Source of the DNA: Verrucomicrobiota bacterium
Lineage (GTDB): Bacteria > Verrucomicrobiota > Verrucomicrobiia > Opitutales > Opitutaceae
Direction of reading: 5' to 3'
Length of the DNA: 16,835 bases
Assembly: GCA_030916665.1 (NCBI GenBank)
Contig: JAUPWC010000121.1
Location: 1-16,835, forward strand
Shown here: one piece after another, positions 561 to 14,840 of the stretch
Layout of the letters: the number at the start of each line of letters is the position of its first letter
Position numbering within the stretch: the stretch's first letter is position 1
Position numbers and translations under genes: made by a program
The notes under the pieces: model-generated
Database searches by the model: none
What the model was told of the DNA's origin: nothing
What the model saw: only the letters and a program-made list of their open reading frames with translations

Positions 561-644
561 AACGGAGGATATGAGGATCGGAGGGTGTGAAACCTGAGGA
601 TTTCTCGCACCCTCTCACCCTCACCTCCTCACCCCCTCGTTCAA
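561..644. repeat. Intergenic imperfect inverted repeat A (GA-rich words)
   Basis: The gap between acnA and the STAS gene is filled by a purine-rich left arm (about 561-601) and a pyrimidine-rich right arm (about 604-644). The right arm read in reverse complement begins AACGAGGGGGTGAGG, against AACGGAGGATATGAGG on the left. The left arm repeats variants of GAGGAT, GGGTGTGA and CTGAGGAT. The 13-mer GAAACCTGAGGAT at 589-601 recurs exactly at 5017-5029. The pairing is imperfect and there is no T-run. The right arm ends right at the STAS start codon. Confidence 0.7.
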
Positions 645-1148
645 ATGGCAGAGCCATCCAAGCCCGTCTTCCTCGTTGATGCCTACGCCGACCCGGTCGT
701 TGTGCGCATCGAGGGGCGGGCTTCGTTCCTGAACAGCGCGGCGGTGAAGGATTTTTTCACCGCCATGATCGGGCAGGGAAAGACGCGCTACGCGGTGGAT
801 TTCAAGGGCTGCGCCAGCATGGACAGCACCTTCCTCGGTGTGCTCGCCGGGGCGGCCATCCAGCTGCGCAAGTTGACCCCGCCCGGTTCGCTGACACTCG
901 TGCGGGTGGGGGAACGCAACCTTGAGCTCATCCGCAACCTCGGCCTGCACCGTCTCGCGACCGTGGACACCGGCGGCAACGTGGCGGAGGGCGCCTTGAA
1001 CGAGCTCGACGCCCGCAAGCTCGGCGAGATCGAAGGCGCCAAGCTGGTGCTCGAGGCCCACGAAAATCTCGTGGCCACCGATCCCGAGAACGCGACCAAG
1101 TTCCAGGACGTGCTGGCGTTCCTGCGCAACCAGCTGGGCGGCCGCTGA
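645..1148 (+). CDS. STAS-domain protein, likely anti-sigma-factor antagonist type
   Basis: This 167-residue cytoplasmic protein has a STAS fold over about residues 8-110. The conserved phospho-acceptor loop reads CASMDSTFLGVLAG, with Asp60-Ser61-Thr62. In SpoIIAA/RsbV proteins the equivalent serine is phosphorylated by an anti-sigma kinase and dephosphorylated by a PP2C phosphatase. The last ~55 residues are an extra helical-looking tail beyond the usual ~110-residue antagonist. The next gene encodes a SpoIIE-type phosphatase, which supports a partner-switching role; the kinase and sigma factor are not in view. The ATG at 645 gives the best N terminus (MAEPSKPVFLVDAY) but has no Shine-Dalgarno site, because repeat A runs up to it. 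The STAS family is well supported; the exact target is unknown. Confidence 0.85.
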   Translation: MAEPSKPVFLVDAYADPVVVRIEGRASFLNSAAVKDFFTAMIGQGKTRYAVDFKGCASMDSTFLGVLAGAAIQLRKLTPPGSLTLVRVGERNLELIRNLGLHRLATVDTGGNVAEGALNELDARKLGEIEGAKLVLEAHENLVATDPENATKFQDVLAFLRNQLGGR

Positions 1149-1154
1149 TGCGGC

Positions 1155-1262
1155 CAAGTAGCAGGCAACAAGTCGCCAAGTAACAGGAGGGAAATTCCCG
1201 AGGGCCAGGCCGGTGCCGCGGTCCGGATTCTTGCTACTTGTTCCTTGCTACTTGTTACTTCA
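1155..1262. repeat. Intergenic imperfect inverted repeat B (CAAGTAGCAAG words)
   Basis: The left arm at 1155-1188 contains CAAGTAGCAGG, CAACAAG and CCAAGTAACAGG. The right arm at 1228-1262 is close to its reverse complement, with mostly transition differences. The right arm holds a perfect direct repeat of TTGCTACTTGTT at 1231-1242 and 1245-1256. The centre includes the palindrome GGGAAATTCCC. It separates the STAS gene (stop at 1148) from the phosphatase gene (start at 1273). Confidence 0.75.
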
Positions 1263-1272
1263 ATTTGGACCC

Positions 1273-2712
1273 ATGTCCCTTTTCCTCCTCGGAGCCTTTC
1301 TGAGCGCAGCGATCGTGTATGCGTTCTACTGGCGTGCCCAGCGCGACGCGGCGCTGCTGGAGGAGCAGAATCAGACGCTGCTGGAGGAGCGGCAGATCGT
1401 GATCGATTACATGCACACGATGGTGGACGCCGTCGGCGATCGCCTGCCGCGCGACGAGCTGTTCCAGCGCATCGTGCATGCGGCCATCCTCAGCACCGGC
1501 GCGCTCAGCTCGTGCATCTTTGTGAAGGGGGCCGACAACCTGATGCGCGGTGTGGCTGTCGAAGGTCTGTTTCCGCCGCACCGTCCCATCCCCGACACCC
1601 AGCGCATGAAGATGGGCACGCGGGCCAAGTTCATCGAACAGGTGCTCAAGTCCGAGGTTTTCCCCGTGGGCGAGGGGCTGGTGGGTCGCGTGGCGGCCAC
1701 CGGCCGCGGCGAACTCATCGCCAACGCCGCCGCCGATCCAAGGATGGTCAAACATGATGATGCCGCGTTGTCGGTGCGTTCGGTGATCGCCGCCCCCATC
1801 CTCGTCCGCAAGCGCCTGGTGGGCGTGCTCTGCGTGTGCAATCCGGCGGACGGCCAGCCGTTCACCGAGACGGATTATTCGCTGGCTGAGGCGCTGGCCG
1901 AGCAGGCGGGTCTGGCCGTTCACAACGCCGACTTCCTCGCTTTGCAGGTGGAGAAGCAGCGGCTGGATCTCGATCTCGGCCTCGCCAGCGACATCCAGCA
2001 GATGCTGCTGCCGCGCTCGATGCCGGCGGTTCCCGGGTTGGATCTCGATGCCCGTTACCTTGCGGCCCAGAAGGTGAGCGGCGATCTCTACGATGTCTTC
2101 GAACTGGGCTATGGCCGGCTGGGTCTGGCGGTCGCGGATGTGTCGGGCAAGGGCGTGTCGGCCTCTCTGCTCATGGCGAGCTGCCGCATGGCGCTGCGCC
2201 AGATCGCGCCCGCGCATTTTTCGCCGGCCAAGGTGTTGACCGAACTGAACCGCGCGTTGGCGGGTGACATGCGCGAGGGGACCTACATCACGATGACCTA
2301 TGCCGTGGTGGACGCCACCCGCAACAGCCTGATCCTGGCCCGGGCCGGACACGAGCGGCCACTGCTTTCCCGCCGTAGCGCGGGTGCCGGCGGTTTCGTG
2401 AGCGAGTTTGTGGCGGGCGAGGGCATGCCCATCGGCCTGGTGGAGCCCGCTCTTTTTGAGTCCGTGATCGAGGACAAGGCCGTCGAATTTGTGCCGGGCT
2501 CGACACTGCTGCTCTATACGGATGGCCTAACCGAGGCGCCGAACGCGGAAGACAAGGAGTTTGGCGGTGCCCGGCTCGCCGACGCCCTGCGGAGTGCACA
2601 CGCCAGTTCTGCACGACACATCAACGACGCCATCCTGCTGGCGGTCCAGAATTTCACCGGTTCCGGCGGTTTGCGCGACGACTACACGTTGCTCTCAGTG
2701 AAGCGCATCTGA
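1273..2712 (+). CDS. Membrane-anchored GAF-SpoIIE (PP2C) serine phosphatase, RsbU-like
   Basis: This is a predicted protein phosphatase of 479 residues acting at the cytoplasmic membrane. Residues 2-18 (SLFLLGAFLSAAIVYAF) form one membrane helix. A short Glu/Gln-rich coiled coil follows (about 24-45), then a GAF sensor domain (about 50-225, including VGEGLVGRVAATGRGELI), a linker helix, and a SpoIIE/PP2C domain (about 245-479). The metal-binding motifs are all present: KVSGDLYDVF, VADVSGKGVSASLLMA, YTDGLTEA and RDDYTLLSVK. It probably dephosphorylates the STAS protein encoded just upstream. The frame stays open back to a GTG at 1213, but those 20 residues are translated from repeat B, so the ATG at 1273 is preferred. 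No Shine-Dalgarno site is seen. The GAF ligand cannot be read from the sequence. Confidence 0.9.
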   Translation: MSLFLLGAFLSAAIVYAFYWRAQRDAALLEEQNQTLLEERQIVIDYMHTMVDAVGDRLPRDELFQRIVHAAILSTGALSSCIFVKGADNLMRGVAVEGLFPPHRPIPDTQRMKMGTRAKFIEQVLKSEVFPVGEGLVGRVAATGRGELIANAAADPRMVKHDDAALSVRSVIAAPILVRKRLVGVLCVCNPADGQPFTETDYSLAEALAEQAGLAVHNADFLALQVEKQRLDLDLGLASDIQQMLLPRSMPAVPGLDLDARYLAAQKVSGDLYDVFELGYGRLGLAVADVSGKGVSASLLMASCRMALRQIAPAHFSPAKVLTELNRALAGDMREGTYITMTYAVVDATRNSLILARAGHERPLLSRRSAGAGGFVSEFVAGEGMPIGLVEPALFESVIEDKAVEFVPGSTLLLYTDGLTEAPNAEDKEFGGARLADALRSAHASSARHINDAILLAVQNFTGSGGLRDDYTLLSVKRI

Positions 2713-2727
2713 CCGCCCAGTGGGCGG
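2713..2727 (+). terminator. Short GC hairpin after the phosphatase gene
   Basis: A perfect 6-bp stem, CCGCCC / GGGCGG, with loop AGT starts at the base after the TGA stop. The following sequence is CAAAGGCC, with no T-run. It may therefore be the base of repeat C or an mRNA 3'-end stabiliser rather than a true intrinsic terminator. Confidence 0.4.
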
Positions 2728-2860
2728 CAAAGGCCAAACGCCAAGGATCCAAAGGCCAAAGGCATGAAAATATGAAAACTTCGCTTCGATTTCGACCAGG
2801 CCTTGAGGAATTTGTGTTTTGGATATTGGTTGGCGTCTGTGATTTGGCGTTTGGAGTTTA
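2728..2860. repeat. Intergenic imperfect inverted repeat C (CCAAACGCCAA words)
   Basis: CCAAACGCCAA at 2734-2744 pairs perfectly with TTGGCGTTTGG at 2844-2854, and weaker pairing continues inward. The left arm has an exact 11-base direct repeat, CAAAGGCCAAA, at 2728-2738 and 2750-2760. The right arm repeats TTGG-containing words (TTTTGGATATTGG, TTGGCG). The AT-richer centre at 2762-2815 shows no gene. No convincing promoter for trpB was found in this 199-base gap. Confidence 0.75.
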
Positions 2861-2904
2861 AACCGCGATTCTAGTTTGCCACCGTCCGCCTGCTCCCTAC
2901 CTCT

Positions 2905-2909
2905 AGGAG
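2905..2909 (+). promoter_or_regulatory. Ribosome binding site of trpB
   Basis: AGGAG lies two bases before the ATG at 2912. It decides the start: an in-frame TTG at 2876 would add 12 residues unlike TrpB. The spacing is short. This is one of only two recognisable Shine-Dalgarno sites in the window. Confidence 0.6.
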
Positions 2910-2911
2910 TG

Positions 2912-4131
<1,220 letters not shown>

Positions 4132-4135
<4 letters not shown>

Positions 4136-5001
4136 ATTCCATGACCGGCTACGGCCGCGGCACCGCGGTCTTGGGTGAGTTGACGCTTACCGTCCAGGTG
4201 AACTCGGTGAACCGCAAGACACTCGATCTGACGTTGAAATTACCTGCCGAGTGGGATGGGTTCGAGGCGGCGGTGGGAGAGGCCGTTCGCAAGGTGGTCT
4301 TGCGCGGCAAAGTTCATGTTGCCGCCGAAGTTACCGGGCAAGCGGCCGGGGTGGCGAGGTGGGACGAGATGGCGGTGTCCGCCACGCTCGACCAGCTGGC
4401 CGCGCTGGCGAAGCTGAAGGGGGTGTGCTTCGAGCCCAGTGCCGACCTGCTCTGGCAGATCGCCAACAGCCAGCGCACCGAGGGCGGATTGCCGGCCGAT
4501 GAAGAGGCCTCGGCGATCCTGCTCAAGGCGCTTGCCGAGGCCCTGCGCGGGCTGGCTGCGATGCGCGCGAAGGAGGGCGAGGCCCTGCTGGTGGATTTTA
4601 TCGGCCGTTGGGAGAAACTGCATGCGGCGACCGAGGTGATCGCCCAGCGGGCGCCCGCGATCACGACGGCCTACCGCGACCTGCTGTTGCAGCGGCTGCG
4701 ACAGGCCGGGCTGGAATTGGAACTGGGCGACGAACGCGTGCTCAAGGAAGTCGCGCTTTTCGCCGACCGCTGCGACATCACCGAGGAGATCACCCGGCTG
4801 CGTCACCACCTGGTGCAGCTCAAGGAACTCCTGCGCGCCAAGGGCGAGATCGGGCGCAAGGCGGAGTTCATCCTCCAGGAGATCGGCCGCGAGATCCACA
4901 CCATCGGCAGCAAGGCCAACGACCTCGCCGTCTCGCAGAAGGTGATCGAGTTCAAGAACGAGCTCGAGCGCGTGCGGGAGCAGATGGCGAACGTGGAGTG
5001 A
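4132..5001 (+). CDS. yicC: YicC/YloC family endoribonuclease-type protein
   Basis: This protein has 289 residues, the usual family length. The N-terminal YicC domain begins [10 protein letters not shown] and covers about residues 1-155. The C-terminal DUF1732 domain (about 205-289) contains the signature [13 protein letters not shown] and [21 protein letters not shown]. coli YicC is linked to RNA turnover, and members of the family have been described as ribonucleases; the substrate here is unknown. The ATG at 4132 overlaps the trpB TGA; another in-frame ATG at 4141 (MTGYGRG) would also match family N termini. No Shine-Dalgarno site is seen, so expression may depend on translation of trpB. 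The gene ends at a convergent junction with lspA marked by repeat D. Confidence 0.92.
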
Positions 5002-5016
5002 CGCAGACGCGTCATG

Positions 5017-5099
5017 GAAACCTGAGGATATGAAGGTGTGAATCCTGAGGATGAGGAGTTTCAATCCTCACGCCTTCACGCCCTCAGCTTTCAGGTTTC
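5017..5099. repeat. Convergent-junction inverted repeat D, related to repeat A
   Basis: GAAACCTGA at 5017-5025 pairs perfectly with TCAGGTTTC at 5091-5099. TGAAGGTGTGA at 5031-5041 pairs with TCACGCCTTCA at 5068-5078 with one mismatch. ATCCTGAGGAT at 5042-5052 is itself a palindrome. The 13-mer GAAACCTGAGGAT (5017-5029) is identical to 589-601 in repeat A, with the words in a different order around it. It lies between the 3' ends of yicC and lspA, and the lspA stop codon (5091-5093) is inside the right arm. Confidence 0.8.
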
Positions 5100-5678
5100 G
5101 CTGGTCGTTGCCGGTTGCCGGAGCGACCAGAGGATATACCAGAACACGCCGATGCAGATGCCGCTGTCGGCGATGTTGAACGTGGGGAAGACGTAGCCGC
5201 CGAAGTGGAAGTCGAGGAAATCGATGACGTGGCCGTGGACCAGCCGGTCCACGAGGTTGCCGGCGACCCCGCCGACGAGCAGGCCGAAGGCCGGCTGGGC
5301 GGCCCGGTGTTGCAGGCCCAGCGTGTGCCGCCACCAGAACATCGCCCCGAGGGTCACGATGGCCAGCACGGCGAGCCAGAGGCTCTGGCCGGTGAACATG
5401 CTCCAGGCCGCGCCCGTGTTGCCGACGTGCACCAGGTTGAAGAAGCCGGGTATCACCTCGATCTGGGCGAACTTGCCGTAGCTGCCGAAGGGCAGCCGGT
5501 CGGCGATCATCTCCTTGGTGATCTGGTCGGCGACAAAAACCAGCACGCCTACAATCCAGAGGCAACGATACGCCCAGATGCGCTGGATTTTGGATTTCTG
5601 GTTCTCGATTATCGCTTGGCCGGAAACGTCCGGCTCCGCTCCGGCAGTGGGGCCCGGTAACTGGGACTCAGGCTTCAA
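5091..5678 (-). CDS. lspA: Lipoprotein signal peptidase LspA
   Basis: LspA is signal peptidase II, an inner-membrane aspartic protease that cleaves prolipoprotein signal peptides before the lipidated cysteine. Conserved blocks are all present: FVADQITKEMIADRLP, VGNTGAAWSMF, LVGGVAGNLVDRLV followed by VIDFLDFHF, and FPTFNIADSGICIG. The two catalytic aspartates are those in VIDF and FNIAD. Four membrane helices are expected. The start is uncertain. The frame has no ATG before the first helix, and the TTG at 5678 gives 195 residues. Most relatives are about 160, so translation may begin nearer IWAYRCLWIV (around 5580) from an unusual codon. The extra N-terminal residues (such as IENQKSKIQ) are translated from repeat E. 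It lies downstream of ileS and the DksA-like gene, a common ileS-lspA association. Confidence 0.93.
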   Translation of the reverse strand: MKPESQLPGPTAGAEPDVSGQAIIENQKSKIQRIWAYRCLWIVGVLVFVADQITKEMIADRLPFGSYGKFAQIEVIPGFFNLVHVGNTGAAWSMFTGQSLWLAVLAIVTLGAMFWWRHTLGLQHRAAQPAFGLLVGGVAGNLVDRLVHGHVIDFLDFHFGGYVFPTFNIADSGICIGVFWYILWSLRQPATTSET

Positions 5679-5710
5679 TCGAAAATCCGGAATCGAAAAT
5701 CGAAAATTGG
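5586..5710. repeat. Intergenic inverted repeat E (AATCGAAAAT words)
   Basis: The arm at 5586-5614 pairs with 5673-5701, 21 of 29 positions by eye. AATCGAAAAT occurs at 5677-5686 and 5691-5700, with another CGAAAAT at 5701-5707. The opposite arm has GGATTTTGG and CTCGATTATCG. The centre contains a GC hairpin, CCGGAAACGTCCGG. It separates the DksA-like gene from lspA and covers the region where the lspA start must lie. Confidence 0.72.
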
Positions 5711-5711
5711 C

Positions 5712-6632
5712 TTATTCGTCGTCGCCGCCGCTGTCGTCGGCGACCTTGCCGCCTTCCTCGTCGGTGCCGTCGCCGAACAGGCCACCACGCTGGACGGCGC
5801 GGTGGGAGTGGCGCTCGACCTGCTTCTTGGCCTCGGTGGAGTAGCGGGTGAAGGGCACGGCGAGCAGGCGCTCCTTGGCGATGGGCTTCTGCGTGGATTC
5901 GCAGATGCCGTAGGTGCCCGCGTGGACGCGTTTGATGGCGGCCTCGATCTCGGCGAGGGCCTCCTGCTCGTTGGAGACGAGCGAAAGGGCGAAGTCGCGG
6001 TCAAAGGTGTCGGTGCCGGCGTCCGCCATGTGCTGGCCGTAGCCGGAGAGATCGCCGGAGTCGTCCTTGGACGACTTGAGCAGGGTCTCCTCGGTGTGCT
6101 CGCCGAGCTGTTGGAGCACATGGCTGCGCAGTTCGAGCAGGAGGCGGTAGTAACGGCGGAATTTTTCGGGCACCTCGGACTCGTCCACCATGGCGGTCGG
6201 AGCCTTCTTGCCCTTGGCCGGGTTGAATCCGAGGATGTCCGCCAGCGAGGCGGTCTTCACATGGTGCGGCTTGTGGGGCTTCTCCAGCTGGGCCAGGTCG
6301 TGGGCCTTGGCCTTCGCCTGGGTGGCGGCTTTGCTGGTCTTGGCCGTGGCCTCGAGCTGCTTCTCGTTTTTCTGCGCGATCTCGCGCACCTCATCGAGAG
6401 AGAAGGCAATGGCACGGGTGCTCGTGGCGGGTTTGCGTTCGAGGAGCTTGCGCTTGATATCGGCGGCGGACATCGGGACTTTCGTCGTGGATTTGGCGGG
6501 AGCGGGCGCCGGTGCGGGGGCCTTGGCGGATGCAGGTTTGGCCGGGAAGGCTTTGGCGGCGGGTTTTTTGGCCGGGGCCGGCTTGGCTGCGACAGGCTTC
6601 TTCTTGGCGGTGGTTTTCTTGCTCGTGGCCAT
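5712..6632 (-). CDS. DksA/TraR-like protein with a histone-H1-like Lys/Ala/Pro tail and degenerate zinc finger
   Basis: This 306-residue protein has a low-complexity basic tail (about residues 1-60, Lys/Ala/Pro-rich, like eukaryotic H1 tails), a charged linker (60-150) and a C-terminal DksA/TraR-like region (about 155-280). The coiled coil includes DTFDRDFALSLVSNEQEALAEIEAAIKRV, read in two parts as TDTFDRDFAL and EQEALAEIEAAI. The finger reads GTYGICESTQKPIAKERL then AVPFTRYSTEAKK. The canonical family has four cysteines; here only Cys244 remains, and it is the only cysteine in the protein. DksA proteins bind the RNA polymerase secondary channel and alter initiation with ppGpp. Whether this one does so without a zinc site is unknown, and the basic tail suggests nucleic-acid binding. 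The ATG at 6632 lies 15 bases after the ileS stop, so it is probably in the same transcript. Confidence 0.8.
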   Translation of the reverse strand: MATSKKTTAKKKPVAAKPAPAKKPAAKAFPAKPASAKAPAPAPAPAKSTTKVPMSAADIKRKLLERKPATSTRAIAFSLDEVREIAQKNEKQLEATAKTSKAATQAKAKAHDLAQLEKPHKPHHVKTASLADILGFNPAKGKKAPTAMVDESEVPEKFRRYYRLLLELRSHVLQQLGEHTEETLLKSSKDDSGDLSGYGQHMADAGTDTFDRDFALSLVSNEQEALAEIEAAIKRVHAGTYGICESTQKPIAKERLLAVPFTRYSTEAKKQVERHSHRAVQRGGLFGDGTDEEGGKVADDSGGDDE

Positions 6633-6647
6633 AATCGGTAAATTGGG

Positions 6648-9503
6648 TCAGGAGTTAAGGGCTTCCGCACAGCGAGGGCAAACCTCTCCGTGCGGGGTGG
6701 TGACGATTTTCGGGACCCAGCGCCAGCAGCGCGGGCAGCGTTGATAGCCTTGTTCGGCGCAGGGCTCGATCAAAATGGAATTTTTGGGCTCCACACCGGC
6801 AACGGGTGCGAATTTGACGTCCGATACGATGAATAGTTCCGACAGGACAGACGGATCCAGACCTACAGCGTGTAGTTCATGGTCGGCCATTGCTCCTCGG
6901 AAGGTCACGACGGCATCGAGCGACTTACCTAGCTTGCCGGCAGAGCGAAGCGGTTCGATGGCCTCATTGACGAGTGCGCGGTATTGCAAGCGCGAGGCCA
7001 TCTGCGTGGCCAGCGTAGCGTTCGTCCACTCGGCGGGCGCGACCGGCCAGTCCTGCAGGTGAATGGAGTCCTCGGCGTATTCCTTGCCCGTCTTGGCGAA
7101 GCTCCAGGCCTCGTCGGTGGTAAAGGTCAGGAAGGGGGCGAGCAGCTTGGCCAGCGACTCGAAGATGGCGGCGATGGCGGTCTGCGACGAAAGGCGGAGC
7201 GGGTGGGCGGCGCCAAGCGTGTAAAGGCGGTCCTTCAGGATATCGTGGTAGGTCGCCGACAGCGTGACCGAGCAGAACTGGTTGCAGAGCTGGTAAACGC
7301 GGTGGAACTCGTAGGCGTCATAGGCCTTCGTGCATTCGTTGATCAGCGAGGCGGTCTGGTGCAGCGCCCAGCGGTCGAGGGCGTCCATGTGCGCAACGGG
7401 CACGGCGTGCTGCGCGGCGTCGAAGTCGAACAGGTTGGAGAGCTGGAACCGAAAGGTGTTGCGGAAAAGACGGTAGGCTTCGCCGACGTTCTTCAGGATC
7501 TCGTCGTCCACCGGGATGTCGTCGCGGAAATCCTGCGAGGCGATCCAGAGGCGGATGACGTCGGCGCCGTGCTGCGCGATGTAGGCGTCGGCGGTTTGGG
7601 GCTTCTGGTAGGTGGAGCTCTTGGAGATTTTCTGGCGGTTCTTGTCCACGATGAACCCGTGGGTAAGGACGGCCTTGTAGGGCGCGGCGCCGGACGCGAT
7701 GACGCTGTTCCAGAGTGAGGACTGGAACCAGCCGCGGTGCTGGTCGGAACCTTCGAGATAGAGATCGGCCGGCCACGAGGTGCCGCCCTGGCCGCGCTTG
7801 AGCACGGCGGCCTGGGTGGAGCCGGAGTCGATCCAGACGTCGAGTGTGTCGCGTCCGCAGCTGAGGTCGGACGCGGCGGGCCAGCCGGCGGGCAGCTTCA
7901 CGCCCTCGAGAATCTGCGCGGCGGTGGAATCATACCAGAAGTTGGTGCCGCGGGTCGCGATCTTGTCGGCCACGGCGCGGATGACGCCGGCGTCGAGGTA
8001 AGCCTGCTTGTCGGGGCCGTAGAAGGCGATGATCGGCACGCCCCACGAGCGTTGGCGGCTGATGCACCAGTCGGGACGCGACTCGACGGCGCCGCGGATG
8101 CGGGCCTCGCCCCAAGCGGGAATCCAGCCCTGGTTGGCGGCGATTTTGGCGATCTCGGAGAGAGCAATCTGGCGGTGACCGGCCTTGTCGAGCGACACGA
8201 ACCACTGGTCCACGGCGCGGAAAATGATCGGGGTCTTCGAGCGCCAGCAGTGCGGGTAGCTGTGCTGATACTTGGCCTTGGCCAACAGGGCGTTGGCCTC
8301 GGCGAGTTTCTTGAGGACGCCGAGGTTGGCCGGAGAGGGCTTCTTGGCGGCGAGATCTTCGACCGTCTCAAGCGTGCTCAGGCCGACGAGGTCGGCGGGC
8401 ACGCGGCCGTCGTCGAGGTATTTGCCGTCGTCGCCGACGGGGCAGTAAACCTCGAGACCGTTCTTGAGGCCGGTCTGGTAATCCTCGGCACCGTGGCCGG
8501 GCGCGGTGTGGACGGCGCCGGTGCCGCTGTCGGTTGTGACGTAGTCGGCGAGGACGACGGGGGAGGCGCGGTCGATGAAAGGATGGCGGGCCTGGAGCTT
8601 CTCGAGCTTGGCGCCGGGGACCTTCAGCACGACGGCCGGCTGGGGTTCGATCTTCGCGGCGGAGGCGACAGTGCCGAGCAGGGCGGAGGCGACGATGATG
8701 CGCTCGGCGCCGAGGTCGGCGACGGCGTATTCCACCTCGGGGTGCAGCGCGATCGCGAGGTTGGCGGGGATCGTCCAAGGCGTGGTCGTCCAGATGACGA
8801 GGAAGAGCGGCTTGTCTGTCGGAAGGCCGTACTTCGCGGCCTCGGCGGCGGGCACGGCGAACTTCACCCAGATGGCGACGGAGGTGTGTTCCTTGTATTC
8901 GATCTCGGCCTCGGCGAGGGCGGTCTCGAAGGGGATGGACCAATAGACAGGCTTCTTGCTGCGGTAGACGAGGCCTTGTTCGACGAAGGCGGCGAAGGTG
9001 CGCAGGATGTCGGCCTCGAAGGCGGGGGCCTTGGTCTTGTATTCGTTTTGCCAGTCGGCGAGCACGCCGATGCGCTTGAACTGCGCGGTCTGTTTGGCGA
9101 TCCAGCCCTCGGAAAATTCGTCGCACTTGGCGCGCAGCTCGGCGGTGGTGAGCGTCAGCATCTTCTCCTGAATCTCACGGCTGACCTTCTGCTCGATGGG
9201 CAGGCCGTGGCAGTCCCAGCCGGGCACGTAGGGCGTGCGGAAGCCGCGCATGGACTTGTAGCGGTTGACGAAATCCTTGAGCGACTTGTTCAGCGCGGTG
9301 CCGATGTGGACGTCGCCGTTGGTGAACGGCGGGCCGTCGTGCAGCACGAAGGCGGGTTTTCCGGCGCTTTTGGCCTGGATTTTGTCGTAAAGGCCCAGCT
9401 TTTCCCAGTGGGCGACCCGCCCCGGCTCGCGTTTGACGAGGTCCGCCCGCATGGGGAAATCCGTCTTCGGAAGCAGCAGGGAATTTTTCAGGTCTTGGGC
9501 CAT
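6648..9503 (-). CDS. ileS: Isoleucyl-tRNA synthetase
   Basis: IleS is a class I aminoacyl-tRNA synthetase that charges tRNA-Ile. The protein has 951 residues, normal for the bacterial form. The HIGH motif is HIGT at 66-69 (GPPFTNGDVHIGTALNK). The CP1 editing domain contains TTTPWTIPANLAIALHPE. DWCISRQRSWGVPI follows, the KMSKS loop is KISKS near residue 620, and the anticodon-binding region comes after it. A C-terminal zinc finger has paired cysteines in RCPRCWRWVPK and EVCPRCAEALNS. The frame is open back to 9647, but the upstream part is translated from repeat F; the ATG at 9503 (MAQDLKNSLLLPKTDFPMR) matches family N termini. No Shine-Dalgarno site and no T-box-like leader is seen. It heads the ileS / DksA-like / lspA run. 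Confidence 0.97.
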   Translation of the reverse strand: MAQDLKNSLLLPKTDFPMRADLVKREPGRVAHWEKLGLYDKIQAKSAGKPAFVLHDGPPFTNGDVHIGTALNKSLKDFVNRYKSMRGFRTPYVPGWDCHGLPIEQKVSREIQEKMLTLTTAELRAKCDEFSEGWIAKQTAQFKRIGVLADWQNEYKTKAPAFEADILRTFAAFVEQGLVYRSKKPVYWSIPFETALAEAEIEYKEHTSVAIWVKFAVPAAEAAKYGLPTDKPLFLVIWTTTPWTIPANLAIALHPEVEYAVADLGAERIIVASALLGTVASAAKIEPQPAVVLKVPGAKLEKLQARHPFIDRASPVVLADYVTTDSGTGAVHTAPGHGAEDYQTGLKNGLEVYCPVGDDGKYLDDGRVPADLVGLSTLETVEDLAAKKPSPANLGVLKKLAEANALLAKAKYQHSYPHCWRSKTPIIFRAVDQWFVSLDKAGHRQIALSEIAKIAANQGWIPAWGEARIRGAVESRPDWCISRQRSWGVPIIAFYGPDKQAYLDAGVIRAVADKIATRGTNFWYDSTAAQILEGVKLPAGWPAASDLSCGRDTLDVWIDSGSTQAAVLKRGQGGTSWPADLYLEGSDQHRGWFQSSLWNSVIASGAAPYKAVLTHGFIVDKNRQKISKSSTYQKPQTADAYIAQHGADVIRLWIASQDFRDDIPVDDEILKNVGEAYRLFRNTFRFQLSNLFDFDAAQHAVPVAHMDALDRWALHQTASLINECTKAYDAYEFHRVYQLCNQFCSVTLSATYHDILKDRLYTLGAAHPLRLSSQTAIAAIFESLAKLLAPFLTFTTDEAWSFAKTGKEYAEDSIHLQDWPVAPAEWTNATLATQMASRLQYRALVNEAIEPLRSAGKLGKSLDAVVTFRGAMADHELHAVGLDPSVLSELFIVSDVKFAPVAGVEPKNSILIEPCAEQGYQRCPRCWRWVPKIVTTPHGEVCPRCAEALNS

Positions 9504-9515
9504 GGAAAGAAAAGC

Positions 9516-9533
9516 GCCGGACGCTACTCCGGC
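9516..9533 (-). promoter_or_regulatory. Small hairpin in the ileS leader
   Basis: GCCGGA / TCCGGC form a perfect 6-bp stem with a 6-base loop, 12 bases upstream of the ileS ATG. There is no evidence of its function. It could slow ribosome access or simply belong to the GC-rich spacer. Confidence 0.3.
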
Positions 9534-9562
9534 GGGGCCAAGTATCAAGGAGCAAAATCTCT

Positions 9563-9635
9563 GGGCGGGGTCTCCGAACCCCGCCTCGATAGTGTCCATG
9601 CCCGCGGAAAGGCGGGGTTCGGAGGCACCCCGCCC
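9563..9635. repeat. Intergenic inverted repeat F (GGCGGGGTTCGGAG words)
   Basis: The arm at 9563-9586 pairs with 9610-9635. All 24 bases of the first arm can pair if two bases (GC) bulge in the second arm. The loop is 23 bases (9587-9609). It lies between hemG (stop at 9651) and ileS, both minus strand. This is the strongest GC-rich hairpin in the window. No T-run follows it on the minus strand. Confidence 0.85.
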
Positions 9636-9650
9636 TACAGGGGCCACTTC

Positions 9651-11024
9651 CTACTTGGCTCCGGCTCGTTCTGCGAGCCGGAGGCCTGATTTCACGCAAT
9701 CCGGCACCGAGATCCCGTCGCGGGCGTTGCCGCCGATGAAGAGGCGAGGGTGGCGGGTCTCCATTGCGGTGAGCTGTTCCTGCCAGCGCTCGTAGCCGAG
9801 CACGTATTGCGGGATGGCGCGGGGCCAGAAGGTATGCCGCAGAAACACGGGCGCGCCGTTCACCCCGACCAGGTCGCGCAGATCCTGATCAATTTTGGCG
9901 AGCAGTTCCGACGACGAGAGCCGGGCCAGGTCGGGCTGGCGCATGCCGCCGACAAAGACGGTGAGCGCCACGTGGCCGTCGGGGGCGCGTTGGGGAAAGA
10001 GCGTCGAGGAAAACAGAATGCCGAGGACGTTGCGGCGTTCGACCGCGGGCACGAGTCCGCCGAAGCCGTCGAGCGGGTGGGTGACTTGGTCGCGACGGTA
10101 GCCGAGGAACAGCGAGCTGACCGGGGGGTGGGGGATGTTTTCGAGCGAAGCCAGCGGGCGTTCGCCGAGCGAGCCGACCGTGAGCTGCGCGAGCGCTCCA
10201 GCCGGCGCGGCGAGCACGACGGCGTCGAATTCGCCGGACTGCGTCTGGCCGTCCTGCCGCCACACGAGGCGGTGGGGTTGGCCGGGCAGAAGGGTTTCGA
10301 TGGCCGCGTTGAATTTGAGCGAGCCGGGCGGGAGTTTCGCGGCGAGGGTGTCGGTGAGGGTCTGCAGGCCGCCCTTGAGCGAGACGATCGGCGGGATGCC
10401 GCCCTCGCCGGCGGCCTTGCGGGCCTTGGCGCCGGCCATCATGCCGCGGATGAGCGAGCCGTGGGAGCGCTCGGCCTCCCAGAGCATGCGGAAGGAGTGA
10501 CGCACGGAGAGTTTCTCCGGGTCGCCCGCGTAGATGCCGGCGACGAGCGGGTTGACCGCGTAGTCCACGAGTTCTTGCGTGAAGTGGGAGCGGACCAGTG
10601 CGGCGAGACTGAGATCGGTGGTGCGCACGCGCGGCCGGCTGAACATTTCCAGCGGCAGCGAGAGTTTTGTGCGCAGGCCGAAGAGCGACGACTTCAGGAA
10701 GGCCGGCGGCGAGGAGGGCACCGGCACGAACTTGCCGCCGCGGACGACGAACCGGCGTTTCGCCAGCGGGGCGGCGGGCACGACAGCAGATTCGAGACCG
10801 AGGTCGCCGACCAGCTGCTTGATGTCCTTGCCGAACTGCAGGGAGTTGGGGCCGGATTCGTAGAGCCAGCCCTCCTCGGCAGGGGAGCGGATCGAGCCGC
10901 CGGGCTGGGAACCTTTCTCGAAAACGGTGACGCGGCAGCCGCGCCGGGCGAGGTGGAACGCCGCCGTGAGGCCGGTGATGCCGGCCCCGACGACGGCAAC
11001 GTGCGTGGAGGTTGCAGCGGACAT
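9651..11024 (-). CDS. hemG: Protoporphyrinogen oxidase, flavin-dependent HemY type
   Basis: This enzyme oxidises protoporphyrinogen IX to protoporphyrin IX using FAD and O2, the penultimate step of heme synthesis. Some members act on coproporphyrinogen III instead. The protein is 457 residues. An N-terminal Rossmann FAD motif, VAVVGAGITGLTAAFHLARR (residues 9-28), is followed by the ribose-binding acidic residue in VTVFEKGSQPGG. The central part has LKGGLQTLTDTLAAKLPPGS, and the C terminus has the second FAD contact LFIGGNARDGISVPDCV. The start ATG at 11024 has a GGAG eight bases upstream. It belongs to the flavoprotein HemY family and not to the small E. coli HemG family, so hemY would be an equal name. 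Its place after hemF and hemE supports the protoporphyrin route. Confidence 0.93.
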   Translation of the reverse strand: MSAATSTHVAVVGAGITGLTAAFHLARRGCRVTVFEKGSQPGGSIRSPAEEGWLYESGPNSLQFGKDIKQLVGDLGLESAVVPAAPLAKRRFVVRGGKFVPVPSSPPAFLKSSLFGLRTKLSLPLEMFSRPRVRTTDLSLAALVRSHFTQELVDYAVNPLVAGIYAGDPEKLSVRHSFRMLWEAERSHGSLIRGMMAGAKARKAAGEGGIPPIVSLKGGLQTLTDTLAAKLPPGSLKFNAAIETLLPGQPHRLVWRQDGQTQSGEFDAVVLAAPAGALAQLTVGSLGERPLASLENIPHPPVSSLFLGYRRDQVTHPLDGFGGLVPAVERRNVLGILFSSTLFPQRAPDGHVALTVFVGGMRQPDLARLSSSELLAKIDQDLRDLVGVNGAPVFLRHTFWPRAIPQYVLGYERWQEQLTAMETRHPRLFIGGNARDGISVPDCVKSGLRLAERAGAK

Positions 11025-11040
11025 CGGATTATCTCCGATG
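11022..11040 (-). promoter_or_regulatory. Hairpin covering the hemG ribosome binding site and start codon
   Basis: On the minus strand, CATCGGA and TCCGATG form a perfect 7-bp stem around a 5-base loop (GATAA). The last three bases of the 3' arm are the hemG ATG. The Shine-Dalgarno GGAG spans the 5' arm and loop, eight bases before the ATG. Folding would hide both, so it may tune translation of hemG. Confidence 0.45.
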
Positions 11041-11099
11041 ATACCGAAACCATGACCGGAGGACTGCGCAAATCTTGGCCATGGTTGCGCCGATACGGG

Positions 11100-12125
11100 T
11101 CATTTCCAACGGGTGACGGTGTCCACCAGCGCCTCCATGCACTCGATCTTGGCCTGGGGCATGATGCCGTGGCCGAGATTGAGGATGTGGCCGGGGGCGC
11201 CGCGCAGGGATTCGAGCAGGCGCGTGGTCTCGCGACGCACGATGTCGGGGGTGGTGTTCATGAGCACCGGGTCGAGGTTGCCCTGCAATGCGATGTTGGC
11301 GGGCACGAGCCGGCGCACGACGCCGAGGTCCACGGTCCAGTCCACGCCGAGCACGCGGGCGCCGCTGAAGGCGAGGTCGGTGAGCTGGGAGTTGACACCC
11401 TTGGCGTAGAGGATGACTGGAAAATCCTTGGGCAGAGCGGCGATGATCGCGCGCATCCAGCGCAGCGAGGCGGCTTCGTAGTCCTGGCCCGCGATGATGC
11501 CGCCCCACGAGTCGAAGAGCTGGATGGCGTCGGCGCCGGCGCGGATCTGCATCTGGAAATACTCGATGAGCGCGGCGGTGAGCTTCTCCATCAGCGCGTC
11601 GAAGAACGCACGGTCGGTGTAGAAAAGTTCCTTGATGCGCACGTAGTCGTCGGAGCTGCCGCCCTCAACCATGTAGGTGGCGAGGGTCCACGGGGAGCCG
11701 CCGAAACCGAGGAGGGCGCGCTCGCCCTTGAGCTCGGCCTTAACGCGTTCGAGGGCCTTGCCCACGTAGTCGAGCCGGAACTGCACGCCGACCGGGTCCA
11801 GCCGGTCGAGCTGCTGGCGGTTATCGAGGCGGAACTCCATTTCGATGCCGCCGCCGTCACGAAACTTGTAGGGCTGGCCGAGGGCCTCGGGGATGACGAG
11901 GATGTCGGAGAAGATGATGGCCGCATCGAGCGCGAACCGGCGCAGCGGCTGGAGCGTGACCTCGGCCGCGAGCTCGGGCGTGCGCACCATCTCGACGAAG
12001 GAGTGTTTGCCCTTCAGGGCGCGGTATTCGGGCAGGTAGCGGCCCGCCTGGCGCATCACCCAGACCGGCGGGCGGTCGAGCGGCGAGCAGGCGGTGGCGG
12101 CGAGGAAGCGTTCGCGGGAAGTCAT
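11100..12125 (-). CDS. hemE: Uroporphyrinogen decarboxylase HemE
   Basis: HemE removes four carboxyl groups from uroporphyrinogen III to give coproporphyrinogen III, without cofactor, in the cytoplasm. The protein is 341 residues, normal length. The N-terminal signature PPVWVMRQAGRYLPEYRAL (19-37) carries the substrate-binding arginines. GFGGSPWTLATYMVEGG and the FDSWGG motif follow, and NLGHGIMPQAKIE lies near the C terminus. The ATG at 12125 gives the usual MTSRERFLAA start. It has no Shine-Dalgarno site, and the arm of repeat G ends four bases upstream. It is downstream of hemF and 75 bases upstream of hemG. That short gap holds only weak inverted complementarity (AACCATG at 11048-11054 with CATGGTT at 11080-11086). 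Confidence 0.97.
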   Translation of the reverse strand: MTSRERFLAATACSPLDRPPVWVMRQAGRYLPEYRALKGKHSFVEMVRTPELAAEVTLQPLRRFALDAAIIFSDILVIPEALGQPYKFRDGGGIEMEFRLDNRQQLDRLDPVGVQFRLDYVGKALERVKAELKGERALLGFGGSPWTLATYMVEGGSSDDYVRIKELFYTDRAFFDALMEKLTAALIEYFQMQIRAGADAIQLFDSWGGIIAGQDYEAASLRWMRAIIAALPKDFPVILYAKGVNSQLTDLAFSGARVLGVDWTVDLGVVRRLVPANIALQGNLDPVLMNTTPDIVRRETTRLLESLRGAPGHILNLGHGIMPQAKIECMEALVDTVTRWK

Positions 12126-12129
12126 TTTG

Positions 12130-12212
12130 AACCACTAATGGACACTAATGCCTCACTAATTCCAAGCGATGAGAGCGGGTGATTAGTGAGCTATTAGTGT
12201 GGATTAGTGGTT
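12130..12212. repeat. Intergenic inverted repeat G (CACTAAT heptamer, three copies per arm)
   Basis: The arms at 12130-12160 and 12182-12212 pair at 27 of 31 positions. Each arm carries the heptamer CACTAAT (or its complement ATTAGTG) three times at 10-11-base spacing: 12133, 12143 and 12154 on the left, and the mirrored copies on the right. The loop is about 21 bases. The right arm overlaps the last codons and TAA stop of hemF, and the left arm ends four bases before the hemE ATG. Confidence 0.9.
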
Positions 12213-13097
12213 TGATTCATCCGCCCAGTTGCGCGGCTTCAGGAACACGTCGTAGAGCCGCGCCTCAGGCGTGCCGGGGTCGGGTTTCCAGTCGTAGCGC
12301 CACGCGGCAAGCGGGGGCAGGGACATGAGGATGGATTCGGTGCGGCCGCCGCTTTGCAGGCCGAAGTGCGTGCCGCGGTCCCAGACCAGATTGAACTCCA
12401 CGTAGCGGCCGCGGCGGTAGAGCTGGAAGTCGCGCTCGCGGTCCCCCTGGGGCGTGGCCCTGCGCTTCTGCACGATCGGCAGGTAGGCCGGCACGAAGGC
12501 ATCGCCGACCGCGCGCATGAGCGCGAAGCTCTGCGCGAAGCCGGGCGCGTTGAAGTCGTCGAAGAACACGCCGCCCACGCCGCGCGGCTCGGCGCGGTGC
12601 TTCAGGTAGAAGTAGTCGTCGCACCATTTTTTGAACCGCGGGTAGTGTTCGCCGGTTGCGGCCTGGGCGGTGCGATGCCAGTGGGCGCAGTCCTCCTCGA
12701 AGCCGTAGTAGGGTGTCAGGTCGAACCCGCCGCCGAACCACCAGGTGTCGCCGGCCTGGAAGAACCGCACGTTCATGTGGCTGGTCGGGACGAAGGGGTT
12801 GCGGGGGTGGATGACCAGCGAGACGCCGAGGGCGTGGAAGGGCTTGCCGGCGAGTTCGGGGCGGCTGGCGGTGGCGGAGGGAGGCAGGCAGGCCCCGGAG
12901 ACGTGCGAGAAGCCGACGCCGGCTTTCTCGAACACCGCGCCCTCGCTCAGCACCCGCGAGCGTCCGCCGCCACCCTCGGCGCGCGTCCAGGCGTCCTCCT
13001 TGAAGCGGGCGGTGCCATCCTCCCGTTCCAGGACGTCGCAGATCGAGTCCTGCAGGGCGAGGAGGTAGGAGCGGACGGCGTTCAGGTCGGGCGGCAT
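12204..13097 (-). CDS. hemF: Oxygen-dependent coproporphyrinogen III oxidase HemF
   Basis: HemF converts coproporphyrinogen III to protoporphyrinogen IX by two oxidative decarboxylations with O2. The protein is 297 residues from the ATG at 13097; an in-frame TTG at 13115 would add six residues and is less likely. Conserved blocks are [20 protein letters not shown] (91-110), [15 protein letters not shown] (119-133), [19 protein letters not shown] (158-176), FFDDFN, and [18 protein letters not shown] (235-252) then [10 protein letters not shown]. The family usually ends close to the LKPRNW motif; here six further residues (ADESNH) are read, the last of them and the stop from repeat G. It begins the hemF-hemE-hemG run and faces the lipoprotein gene divergently. 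No Shine-Dalgarno site is seen. Confidence 0.97.
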
Positions 13098-13220
13098 GGC
13101 TGGCAAAGGCGCCAATCAGCCACAAAGCGGATGGAAAATACATGCCAAATCTGCGCCGCGGCGGAACAGGGTGGAGGTGGACCGGTCCCAAGTTTGGCCC
13201 TTTCACCCCAACCCTTCCCC
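13098..13220. promoter_or_regulatory. Divergent intergenic region between hemF and the lipoprotein gene
   Basis: This 123-base gap must hold the promoters of both genes, but no clear -35/-10 pair is visible on either strand. GGACCGGTCC at 13179-13188 is a perfect 10-base palindrome and could be a small operator site. GGCTG at 13098 and CAGCC at 13117 could pair next to the hemF start. It lacks the word-type inverted repeats found in the other gaps. Confidence 0.4.
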
Positions 13221-14285
13221 ATGAAAACCTGCGTCCGCCTCGGCGCGTTGGTCCTCGTTCTGAGCTTCGTCGGCTTTTTCGCCGGCTGCGCCAGCCAGTC
13301 TTCGGCTTACCGCCGTCAAGCGGCTGACGACTTTGAAATCGTCGAGACCTCGACCAAGCGCCAGTTCAGCGACCGTGAAATGGCCCACCTGCGGGCGAAG
13401 GCCATCGAATACCTCAACCAAGAGGGGCAGACCGGCAGCGGCGACTACTATTTGCGCATCAATCTGGCGGAAGAGGAGGGGCAACCCAAGGGGGAGTGGG
13501 TGGTCGTGCGCTACACACGGTTCCCGGCGACCGAGGTGAGGATGGTGGCGTCATATCCGACCACGTCCTACCCGCTTTATACCCGCTACTCCTACGACTA
13601 TTCTCCCTTTGGCTTGTTTGGATTCGGAGCCTTCAGCTTCCGCTATTACGACGATCCCTACTACGGATACGGCAGCCACTATCCGGTCTGGGCTCATCCG
13701 CATTACACCGGCAACTGGCGGCACCCGGACCGCCGGCCGGATCATCGGCCTGATCGCAATCCGCCGACCACTGACGGTCGTCCCAATGGCGCGCTGAAGC
13801 CCTCCTACGTGCCGTCCCATGGCGATCGCAACCGCTGGAGCGGCACCAATCGGGAAAACGACAACCGGGGACGTGATCGTCCCGATCATTCTGCCAACAG
13901 CGGCGGCACGCCCCCGAATTGGCGCGAGCGCGACAACCAGTCGGGTTCGACGAGCCCGGGCAGCACCTATACGCCTTCCGCCAATGTCGGCCCGAGTCGT
14001 CCGGCCACCCGTTCCGATTTTCACCGAAACCGCGGGTCATCGGACAACGGTTCCGTCACGCGCCCAATGCCGTCGTCCGAATCGTCGGGCAGCCGCGGGC
14101 GTGATTACACGCCGTCCAGCTCTTCATCGTCTTCGACCGAAACCCGTTCCTCCTCGCCTCCGCCGGCGCCGACCTACACTCCGCCCCCCGCGCCGAGCTA
14201 CAGTCCGCCGGCTACGTCGGAGTCGTCGCAACCGGCCACGCGATCGGTCCTGCACGACGGCGGTCGCACCGCGCGGGAGCCGTGA
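13221..14285 (+). CDS. Tyr- then Ser/Pro/Arg-rich lipoprotein of unknown function
   Basis: A 354-residue predicted lipoprotein. The signal peptide MKTCVRLGALVLVLSFVGFF ends in the lipobox FAGC, with Cys23 as lipid acceptor. Ala follows it, which does not match the inner-membrane retention Asp, so outer-membrane sorting is likely. Residues about 35-110 look folded (QFSDREMAHLRAKAIEYL, GEWVVVRYTRFPATEVRM). Residues 111-152 are very rich in Tyr and Phe. From about 165 to the end the chain is disordered-looking, rich in Arg/Asp/Pro then Ser/Pro. PATRSDFH at 261-268 and PATRSVLH at 338-345 repeat each other. TYTPPPAPSYSPP is a proline motif typical of wall-spanning or extracellular linkers. I do not recognise a named family. 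The ATG at 13221 is chosen because it gives the signal peptide. It is a plausible substrate of LspA. Confidence 0.8.
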   Translation: MKTCVRLGALVLVLSFVGFFAGCASQSSAYRRQAADDFEIVETSTKRQFSDREMAHLRAKAIEYLNQEGQTGSGDYYLRINLAEEEGQPKGEWVVVRYTRFPATEVRMVASYPTTSYPLYTRYSYDYSPFGLFGFGAFSFRYYDDPYYGYGSHYPVWAHPHYTGNWRHPDRRPDHRPDRNPPTTDGRPNGALKPSYVPSHGDRNRWSGTNRENDNRGRDRPDHSANSGGTPPNWRERDNQSGSTSPGSTYTPSANVGPSRPATRSDFHRNRGSSDNGSVTRPMPSSESSGSRGRDYTPSSSSSSSTETRSSSPPPAPTYTPPPAPSYSPPATSESSQPATRSVLHDGGRTAREP

Positions 14286-14313
14286 GGGTAACTGGCGTTT
14301 GGCCCCTTCTCCC

Positions 14314-14398
14314 GCTGGATTCTTCGCTTCGCTCAAAATGACACGCTGAGAGGGAGCTGTCCCGTTCCGGTCATCCTGAGCGCAGCGAAGGATCCAGT
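14314..14398. repeat. Convergent-junction inverted repeat H (GAGCGCAGCGAAGGATC type)
   Basis: The arm at 14314-14342 pairs with 14370-14398, 24 of 29 positions; most differences are transitions that still allow G-U pairs. The core CCTGAGCGCAGCGAAGG resembles a word seen between genes in many unrelated bacterial genomes (recollection, not a search). It lies between the 3' ends of the lipoprotein gene and the TfoX-like gene, and could act in both directions. No T-run is present. Confidence 0.82.
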
Positions 14399-14429
14399 GA
14401 AACCACGTCGTCGCTGGGCTCCGACGCGG

Positions 14430-14840
14430 CTACTTTTTCGATCGGCGCGGCGGCGCGGCTTTCTTCCGCTTCTTCGGTTGTGGCGTGACACCCAGCCGTG
14501 CATCTCGGCGGCGGGCCAGCGCGACGAGCTTGGCGGCGACGCTTTCAAAGCTGTCGGCCGCTTCGGGCAGGTAGAGCCACTTGGGCAGGATGGGGTGGGG
14601 CGAGAGCGCGGGGAGCTCGGCCAGCAGGGCGGCGTGGTGCTCGCGCGCCGTGCAGGCCAGCAGACCGCGCCACGGTTCCTCGCCGGCGCAGAAGCAAAGC
14701 ATGAGCTTGCCGTCGAGGTAGGCGGCCTTGGCCCCGAACATCGCACGCAGCACGAAGGTGGCGTCCGTTTCCAGCGGTTCCCACAGCCACGCGTAACGGT
14801 GCGGACGGCGGGCGACGGGGCGTTCGGTCGGTTTAGCCAT
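14430..14840 (-). CDS. Small TfoX N-terminal-like protein
   Basis: A 136-residue protein whose centre, [20 protein letters not shown], resembles the MFGG.gly.dG.mfa core of TfoX N-terminal domains. [20 protein letters not shown] resembles the later part of that fold. TfoX proteins regulate competence in gamma-proteobacteria, but the stand-alone N-terminal domains elsewhere have no settled role, so none is claimed. The last ~20 residues are a Lys/Arg-rich tail ([15 protein letters not shown]). The ATG at 14840 overlaps the stop of the VF530-type gene by eight bases, so translation is probably coupled. No Shine-Dalgarno site is seen. The coding sequence is secure, the family less so. Confidence 0.6.

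Follow-up and report, generated by a model that had tools for sequence, protein, structure and literature searches.

Intergenic inverted repeats of an Opitutaceae contig as probable gene-less copies of two word-built element types and of REP elements

The window analysed here is the whole of contig JAUPWC010000121.1 (C351; 16,835 nucleotides) of a Verrucomicrobiota bacterium of the family Opitutaceae, whose 4.29-Mb genome is assembled in 698 contigs and is 85% complete. Its genes encode proteins with Aconitase_C, STAS, GAF-SpoIIE, PALP, YicC, signal peptidase II, DksA/TraR zinc finger, class I tRNA synthetase, amino oxidase, URO-D and coproporphyrinogen oxidase domains (Pfam); the gene names leuD, trpB, ileS and hemG are putative, assigned from domain and position. 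Eight gaps contain imperfect inverted repeats (IRs), here called elements A–H (Table 1). A scan of the window against Rfam at gathering scores gave no match to known RNA families. The IRs are probably gene-less copies, or shells, of small dispersed elements: two apparently undescribed types, as the source of A–E (type 1) and of G (type 2), plus repetitive extragenic palindromic (REP) elements (F and the REP-like H). Type 1 would consist of degenerate 7-nucleotide (nt) word arms around a gene for a four-helix-bundle protein, and type 2 of CRC-word arms, spaced 9–10 nt, around a gene for a GxxExxY nuclease. In what follows, L and G numbers are our handles for loci and genomes.

The initial annotation had placed an imperfect IR in each of the eight gaps, and our test agrees: when every gap was compared with 100 dinucleotide-preserving shuffles, none of the shuffles matched the observed score in any of the eight. 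The divergent gap (13099–13220) had been described as free of such a repeat, and its score is matched by 24 of 100 shuffles. The claim that every sizeable gap holds an IR already fails inside the window, at the co-directional gap 11025–11099 (75 bp), which has no significant IR (7 of 100 shuffles). Arms made of short words, attributed to all eight, are found in A, B, C, E and G: the best tandem-word lag is 8 in A and 7 in B, C and E (0 of 500 shuffles equal), and the G words are spaced 10 and 11 nt with a best period of 11 (8 of 500). The periodicity of D is not significant (45 of 500) despite its A vocabulary, and the arms of F (284 of 500) and H (79 of 500) have no word periodicity. Vocabularies are distinct from gap to gap, A and D excepted, and by eye, with no terminator scan run, none of the eight stems is followed by the T-run of an intrinsic terminator, both as first annotated.

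Table 1. Elements and one empty gene junction in the window
Feature	Position	Strand	Arms	Words	Location
A, gene-less IR	561..644		565-590 / 605-630	TGAGG-type, period ~8	between the gene taken for leuD and the STAS gene
B, gene-less IR	1155..1262		1155-1188 / 1222-1254	AAGTAAC-type, period 7	STAS gene to SpoIIE-type phosphatase gene
C, gene-less IR	2728..2860		2729-2759 / 2830-2859	CCAAANG-type, period 7	upstream of trpB
trpB/yicC junction	4132..4135	+			stop and start codons overlap; no element in the window
D, gene-less IR	5014..5100			A vocabulary	convergent yicC/lspA gap
E, gene-less IR	5586..5710		5587-5618 / 5676-5707	ATCGAAA-type, period 7	lspA to DksA-like gene
F, inverted dimer of GTAG-type REP	9561..9636				ileS to the gene taken for hemG
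G, gene-less IR	12129..12214		12130-12160 / 12182-12212	CACTAAT	hemE to hemF
H, REP-like inverted dimer	14313..14400		GTCATYCTGAGCGNAGCGAAGRATC		convergent gap

Word arms of this kind surround genes of two families: a four-helix-bundle family (PF05635/TIGR02436, '23S rRNA intervening sequence protein') and the GxxExxY family of PD-(D/E)XK nucleases (PF13366/TIGR04256). In a first set of 26 genomes, made up of 10 relatives and 16 genomes chosen for the CACTAAT word of element G, PF13366 was found in all 26 and PF05635 in 22, against 3 and 0 of 14 control genomes. Most of the 30 GxxExxY loci that we read have inverted CRC-word arms within ~150 bp, and the four-helix genes lie between inverted arms of 7-nt words, the spelling of which changes from one gene to another in most cases. 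A flank-IR score at or above the 95th percentile of 242 own-genome control genes was reached by 43 of 49 four-helix loci (p = 5e-22) and 42 of 47 GxxExxY loci (p = 9e-23), the scored loci being the better matches. The best word period around four-helix genes is 7 in 36, 8 in 5 and 6 in 2 of 43 loci; around GxxExxY genes it is 9 in 20, 10 in 11, 8 in 7 and 11 in 2 of 40. One locus with a short flank (L307) and two whose genes are covered by L318 and L319 (L292, L312) were excluded, and the own-genome GxxExxY loci at contig ends (L337, L339, L341) were left unscored.

Samples from two other phyla gave PF05635 in 61 of 80 Bacteroidota and PF13366 in 16 of 100 Pseudomonadota. Each sample includes one centre genome, the loci of which were not scored, displaced positions from the same loci served as controls, and L268, already used, was omitted from this scoring. 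Among the best 30 of more than 150 four-helix matches in Bacteroidota, 18 reach the 95% level of the displaced controls (p = 6e-9), with period 7 in 13 of the 18. The same level is reached by 25 of 28 GxxExxY loci in Pseudomonadota (p = 9e-14), with a period of 9–10 in 22 of 24. Protein identity and arm-word similarity between genomes are correlated in both families (Mantel r 0.40 and 0.42; 0 of 2000 permutations each), as measured on the loci with arms (43 four-helix, 40 GxxExxY) with orthologous loci kept in. Word arms are associated with the two gene families, the word period is specific to the partner, and protein lineage agrees with the word.

The arms of the window elements were scored against the flanks of partner genes and 227 control flanks, with three RAYT loci included. 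B, C, D and G score highest against a partner-gene flank. Four-helix arm pairs are the best matches of B (L325 in G017, 53; best control 51, the solo-copy gap L035), C (L329 in G013, 44; control maximum 38) and D (L324 in G017, 45; control maximum 40). Element A matches the four-helix arms of L324 with a score of 43, tied with the own-genome control L058, which holds a solo copy. The words of E surround two own-genome four-helix genes (L317; scores 47 and 42), and a control flank that is presumably a solo copy (L016) also scores 47. The words of G surround GxxExxY genes in its own genome (L334, 48), in G013 (L344, 46) and in G025 (L349, 40), with a control maximum of 43. The best matches of F and H are all control flanks; high-scoring controls include the solo-copy gaps L035, L058, L005 and L014. 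By sequence, then, A–E appear to belong to type 1, with 7–8-nt word arms that are inverted around a PF05635 gene in the same bacterial family, and G appears to belong to type 2, with CRC-word arms inverted around a PF13366 gene.

Two further observations concern elements D and E. The lspA stop codon (5091–5093) falls within the right arm of D, and the longest lspA reading frame starts with TTG at 5678, within E. The ends of lspA may thus be partly element-derived or mis-called.

Gene order is conserved in much of the genus, and the vocabulary of an orthologous gap varies with the species. The trpB|yicC junction was compared in the 19 relatives in which both genes were located; the empty state of the window is shared by L189 and L200. 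Eight relatives hold a four-helix gene there, seven of them between inverted word arms (by eye) and one, L217, without clear arms. The seven with arms form a clade with B words (L188, L196 and L204; 70–73% identity to L196) and a clade with C words (L192, L193, L197 and L209; 70–88% identity). In the other nine relatives the gap is gene-less and 87–210 bp long. By eye, solo IRs of CAC or CRC words occupy it in L191, L203, L205 and L208; L190 combines a GTAG dimer with what is left of a C arm, L206 has a C-arm remnant, and no element was recognised in L194, L202 and L207. Empty, gene-bearing, gene-less and remnant states therefore coexist at one junction.

Two of these loci have additional features. 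In L188 (13463–13965; G017) a frameshift interrupts the four-helix gene, and trpB ends at a stop codon within the left arm of the element. In the L205 gap one of two CAC-dialect IRs is nested within the other (by eye), which suggests a shell inserted into a shell.

The four-helix proteins of the B-word and C-word clades are 48–63% identical and yet lie between unrelated words. This would fit an alternative in which the IRs came first, as hot spots where the small genes land as cargo, and the proteins are blind to the words. Solo IRs that adjoin ordinary-looking genes point the same way, as for H in eight stretches of G017 and for A/D at L058 (by eye). The partner-specific period (7 against 9–10) and the prediction of the word by protein lineage between genomes weigh against it, and we regard this alternative as unlikely. 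At L058 (5628–6471) a cupin-like gene (by eye; 5944–6286) has a solo A/D-type IR in both gaps, one of them divergent, so solo copies can frame an ordinary gene. Two candidate partners were rejected. An ORF6N-domain gene was considered as a third partner, but the L058 gene (1378–1941) has no adjoining A/D words. For H, the eight G017 stretches with widely spaced arms hold ordinary-looking genes, as judged from translations by eye with no family search.

The vocabularies of the window are found again elsewhere in its own genome; the element B pattern AAGTAACAAGTNNCAAG, for example, has 16 copies. At least 120 stretches contain the G word, which has 24 fixed bases and for which our own arithmetic gives about 0.002 expected matches in the collection. 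The 80 matches listed by name include Verrucomicrobia, Lentisphaeria, Planctomycetota, Chlamydiota, Bacteroidota, Nitrosomonas, Methylococcales, Desulfobacterales, Nitrospinia and Orenia. In these stretches, 47 of 135 matches have at least two exact reverse words within 260 nt, and the rest have a drifted partner or no exact one. A looser CAC skeleton is present in 23 of 24 genomes, 16 of which were chosen for carrying the G word, and its reversed control gave no hits. Genomes have word dialects of their own. The recurrence of words across phyla, genomes and gene flanks indicates that the window vocabularies are not local inventions.

One such dialect is seen in the Nitrosomonas contig L068, where a GxxExxY gene (TIGR04256) lies between two CAC-word IRs. 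Before it on the contig (1–720) is a tandem array, spaced ~165 bp, of CGC-dialect IRs with the same architecture. The two small genes that follow this array look like a toxin–antitoxin pair. Integron attC sites, suggested by arrays in a Nitrosomonas contig, were weighed as a possible explanation and then set aside.

The distribution of IRs over the genome was measured with our own Markov gene finder on 80 of the 698 contigs plus the window (81 contigs, 513,340 bases, 466 genes). Outside the window an IR is present in 39 of 137 non-divergent gaps of at least 60 bp and in 3 of 30 divergent ones (one-sided Fisher p = 0.024), so that the enrichment proposed in the initial annotation is found and an IR in every sizeable gap is not. 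Including the window, the counts are 45 of 145 and 3 of 31 (one-sided p = 0.0099); in a first sample of 60 contigs they were 27 of 105 and 2 of 22 (two-sided p = 0.10). Gaps shorter than 30 bp rarely have an IR (1 of 133 outside the window, 1 of 137 with it), and 2 of 197 mid-gene windows of the first sample scored as hits. The census counted an IR in six of the eight non-divergent window gaps of at least 60 bp and therefore misses some. A genome-wide class that is biased to gaps 3′ of genes and keeps structure while its sequence varies, as originally suggested, is thus supported.

This bias would also be expected if the IRs were 3′-end RNA structures, terminators or protectors of mRNA ends, with words arising from slippage and arm correction. 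The strong stems into which the IRs fold speak for such a role, and different vocabularies in orthologous gaps are what it predicts if structure alone mattered. It does not explain why the same words occur across phyla, in many copies per genome and tied to two gene families, nor does the lack of a T-run (by eye) favour it. The hemE–hemF gap, which holds G in the window, bears on the same point. An IR score of at least 26 was obtained there in 8 of 32 relatives (without a shuffle test; that of L211, in a 345-bp gap, may be due to chance), with CACGAAT, GAAGTAA or CATCCAA words in place of CACTAAT. In another count of these relatives, hemE and hemF overlap or lie no more than 8 bp apart (between alignment ends) in 8 of 32, so G looks like an addition to a closely packed gene cluster, which disfavours termination as the reason for its existence. 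In the yicC/lspA gap a score of 26 or above is reached by 8 of 18 scored relatives, with five vocabularies among them. We consider a 3′-end role very unlikely to account for the IRs, and a single 3′-end class held by structure alone is not supported, since words recur across phyla and flank particular small genes; of the three roles that the initial annotation had offered, a replicated element class is the one that our results favour.

Elements F and H differ from the others. F reads as a GTAG REP dimer, probably of the RAYT kind: its right-hand unit is the short G+C-rich GTAG hairpin GTAGGGCGGGG on the minus strand, and TCTG replaces GTAG in its left-hand unit. A broken RAYT gene of the same genome (L002) is flanked by an F-like GTAG hairpin (AGTAGGGCCGGT). 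H is a REP-like dimer, the arms of which begin with GTCAT; the gene beside it (14430–14840, minus strand) has no Pfam match. Exact H-arm copies number 79 in its own genome, 99 in G017, 76 in G013, 3 in G003 and 2 in G023, with none in the reversed control. Two letters of the arm co-vary in nearly all listed copies (two exceptions were seen), so that each H arm acts as a hairpin in its own right. At the arm ends of A, B, C, D, E, G and H, reading by eye showed neither a GTAG nor a CGTC tag.

Two other RAYT-type genes of the genome were seen. One (L003, 1297–2006) is flanked by the repeat GTGGAACG...CAGCGCGTT, with more copies downstream, of a type unlike F. The other (L001, 1405–2410) lies between 29-bp inverted repeats of the AAGGGGTCATG kind, which by eye are unlike the window elements.

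REP elements, including their REPIN forms, resemble the window elements in that they are short and inverted, occur with and without a gene and are biased to gaps 3′ of genes; the sections of PMC3733652 seen here describe the same gap preference for REPs. All eight IRs might then be ordinary REP/REPIN elements moved by RAYT transposases, a view to which the tag of F, the many copies of H and the inverted repeats flanking the own-genome RAYT-type genes lend support. However, REPs have a fixed hairpin, whereas A–E and G are degenerate word arrays with neither a GTAG nor a CGTC tag. Among partner genes, they match four-helix or GxxExxY loci best, never the RAYT loci that were scored alongside. For the set as a whole this explanation is extremely improbable.

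A parallel to type 1 is the intervening sequence (IVS) of 23S rRNA genes, which by name shares its protein family (PF05635) and its inverted termini. In the Coxiella IVS, as described in the part of PMC4990558 consulted, the S23p reading frame is enclosed by complementary ends that pair into a 28-bp stem, and the IVS is cut out of the RNA by RNase III. The same text calls it a selfish element and cites older ideas that IVSs derived from transposition or were once mobile. In contrast to the IVS, which lies within the 23S rRNA gene, the window elements lie between protein genes and match no Rfam family. They also have tandem 7-nt word arms that vary from element to element, and many copies carry no gene.

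Published intergenic heptamers resemble type 1 as well, being 7-nt words in intergenic arrays. They include GGGAATC in Xanthomonas, which forms inverted pairs (70 and 75 cases in two strains), and GGGGATT in Nostoc, according to excerpts of PMC4692102. The TAACTGA repeat sets of Beggiatoaceae are nearly all direct repeats in the portion of PMC4679880 available to us. The terms 'S23', 'four helix' and '23S rRNA' are absent from both texts as searched, and among the matches listed in the open-licence literature no paper links S23 or GxxExxY proteins to intergenic inverted repeats. The prediction that four-helix genes lie within the published heptamer words held in the sequences at hand: (GGGAATC)3 occurs in 3 of 398 Pseudomonadota genomes, two of which (G313 and G443) have one PF05635 gene each, and both genes appear flanked by inverted GGGAATC (L441) or GGGATTC (L440) words. 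In both genomes the gene lies between two genes that we take to be accB and accC.

Seven residues of the GxxExxY protein (G24, G26, E29, Y32, D69, E79 and K81) are invariant in six sequences, as expected for a PD-(D/E)XK enzyme. Its structure, predicted from a six-sequence alignment (predicted local distance difference test, pLDDT, 76.8; predicted template-modelling score, pTM, 0.72), has lambda exonuclease and SSO0001 as top structural matches, with a Holliday junction resolvase lower. These matches are weak (best E 6e-3, none at 0.001, template-modelling score ~0.5), and other folds are among the hits. SSO0001 is, we believe, a Cas4. A comparison of the GxxExxY sequence with the PDB gave no informative relative (best E 0.085). 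In the own genome, the four-helix protein matches XCC0516 (PDB 2gsc; E 2e-17) and, at a weak 21.9 bits below the cut-off of 80, the retroelement protein Avd. We have taken XCC0516 as the Xanthomonas S23p that is described as a toroidal homopentamer in the part of PMC4990558 seen. The simplest roles, in which the nuclease cuts folded arms or targets and the four-helix ring holds the word arrays, are offered tentatively, as a guess that may well prove wrong.

In the mechanism that we propose for the shells, each protein would recognise its own word as a folded single strand, of DNA or RNA, and would promote the copying or insertion of any sequence enclosed by a pair of these arms. Copies without a gene would either move in trans or arise by internal deletion. 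By analogy with the Coxiella IVS, arm stems in transcripts might be cleavable by RNase III. Elements would then be tolerated between genes and inside operons and selected against upstream of promoters, which is our proposed origin of the 3′ bias.

A number of observations weigh against the reading of the IRs as shells of such elements. Movement is inferred, and transposition was not seen; at trpB|yicC, where the flanks have diverged, no clear target-site duplication is visible by eye, and the presence of a four-helix gene at this junction in other genera (L209 and L217) suggests that the window may have lost the gene. Some partner genes lack clear arms. In the first set, 6 of 49 four-helix loci and 5 of 47 GxxExxY loci fall below the control 95th percentile; in the phylum samples, 12 of 30 four-helix loci of Bacteroidota and 3 of 28 GxxExxY loci of Pseudomonadota fall short of that of the displaced controls. 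H is without a known partner, and its arms are absent from the 24 genomes chosen through the G word. Reversed controls were not always clean. That of pattern B gave 3 hits in G013 and 6 in G067, that of pattern E gave 10 in G078, which read as a microsatellite, and that of the heptamer gave 10 in two genomes without true hits; the true heptamer hits listed for G281 and for G443 come from long runs at a single site. To these are added the selection of genomes and loci, the control ties of A and E, the control matches of F and H and the non-significant periodicity of D, all noted above.

The identification of the IRs as shells would join three loose ends, namely ownerless intergenic word repeats, four-helix-bundle (S23) proteins and GxxExxY proteins, and it predicts for any genome which word type flanks which gene. 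A broader reading, which we put forward as a possibility falling somewhat short of probable, is that these elements are multi-phylum selfish DNA in which a protein without known transposase homology, either a four-helix-bundle protein of a family that forms pentamers or a GxxExxY nuclease, reads its own short word of DNA or RNA, repeated with varying letters along inverted arms, and copies the arms into gene junctions. If this is true, the type of protein sets the length of the word (7 or 9–10 nt), its lineage sets the spelling, and much unexplained bacterial intergenic repeat DNA, heptamer arrays included, is debris of such elements. If the proteins do recognise the words, a protein-to-word code would be readable from sequence, and movement would proceed without a classical transposase.

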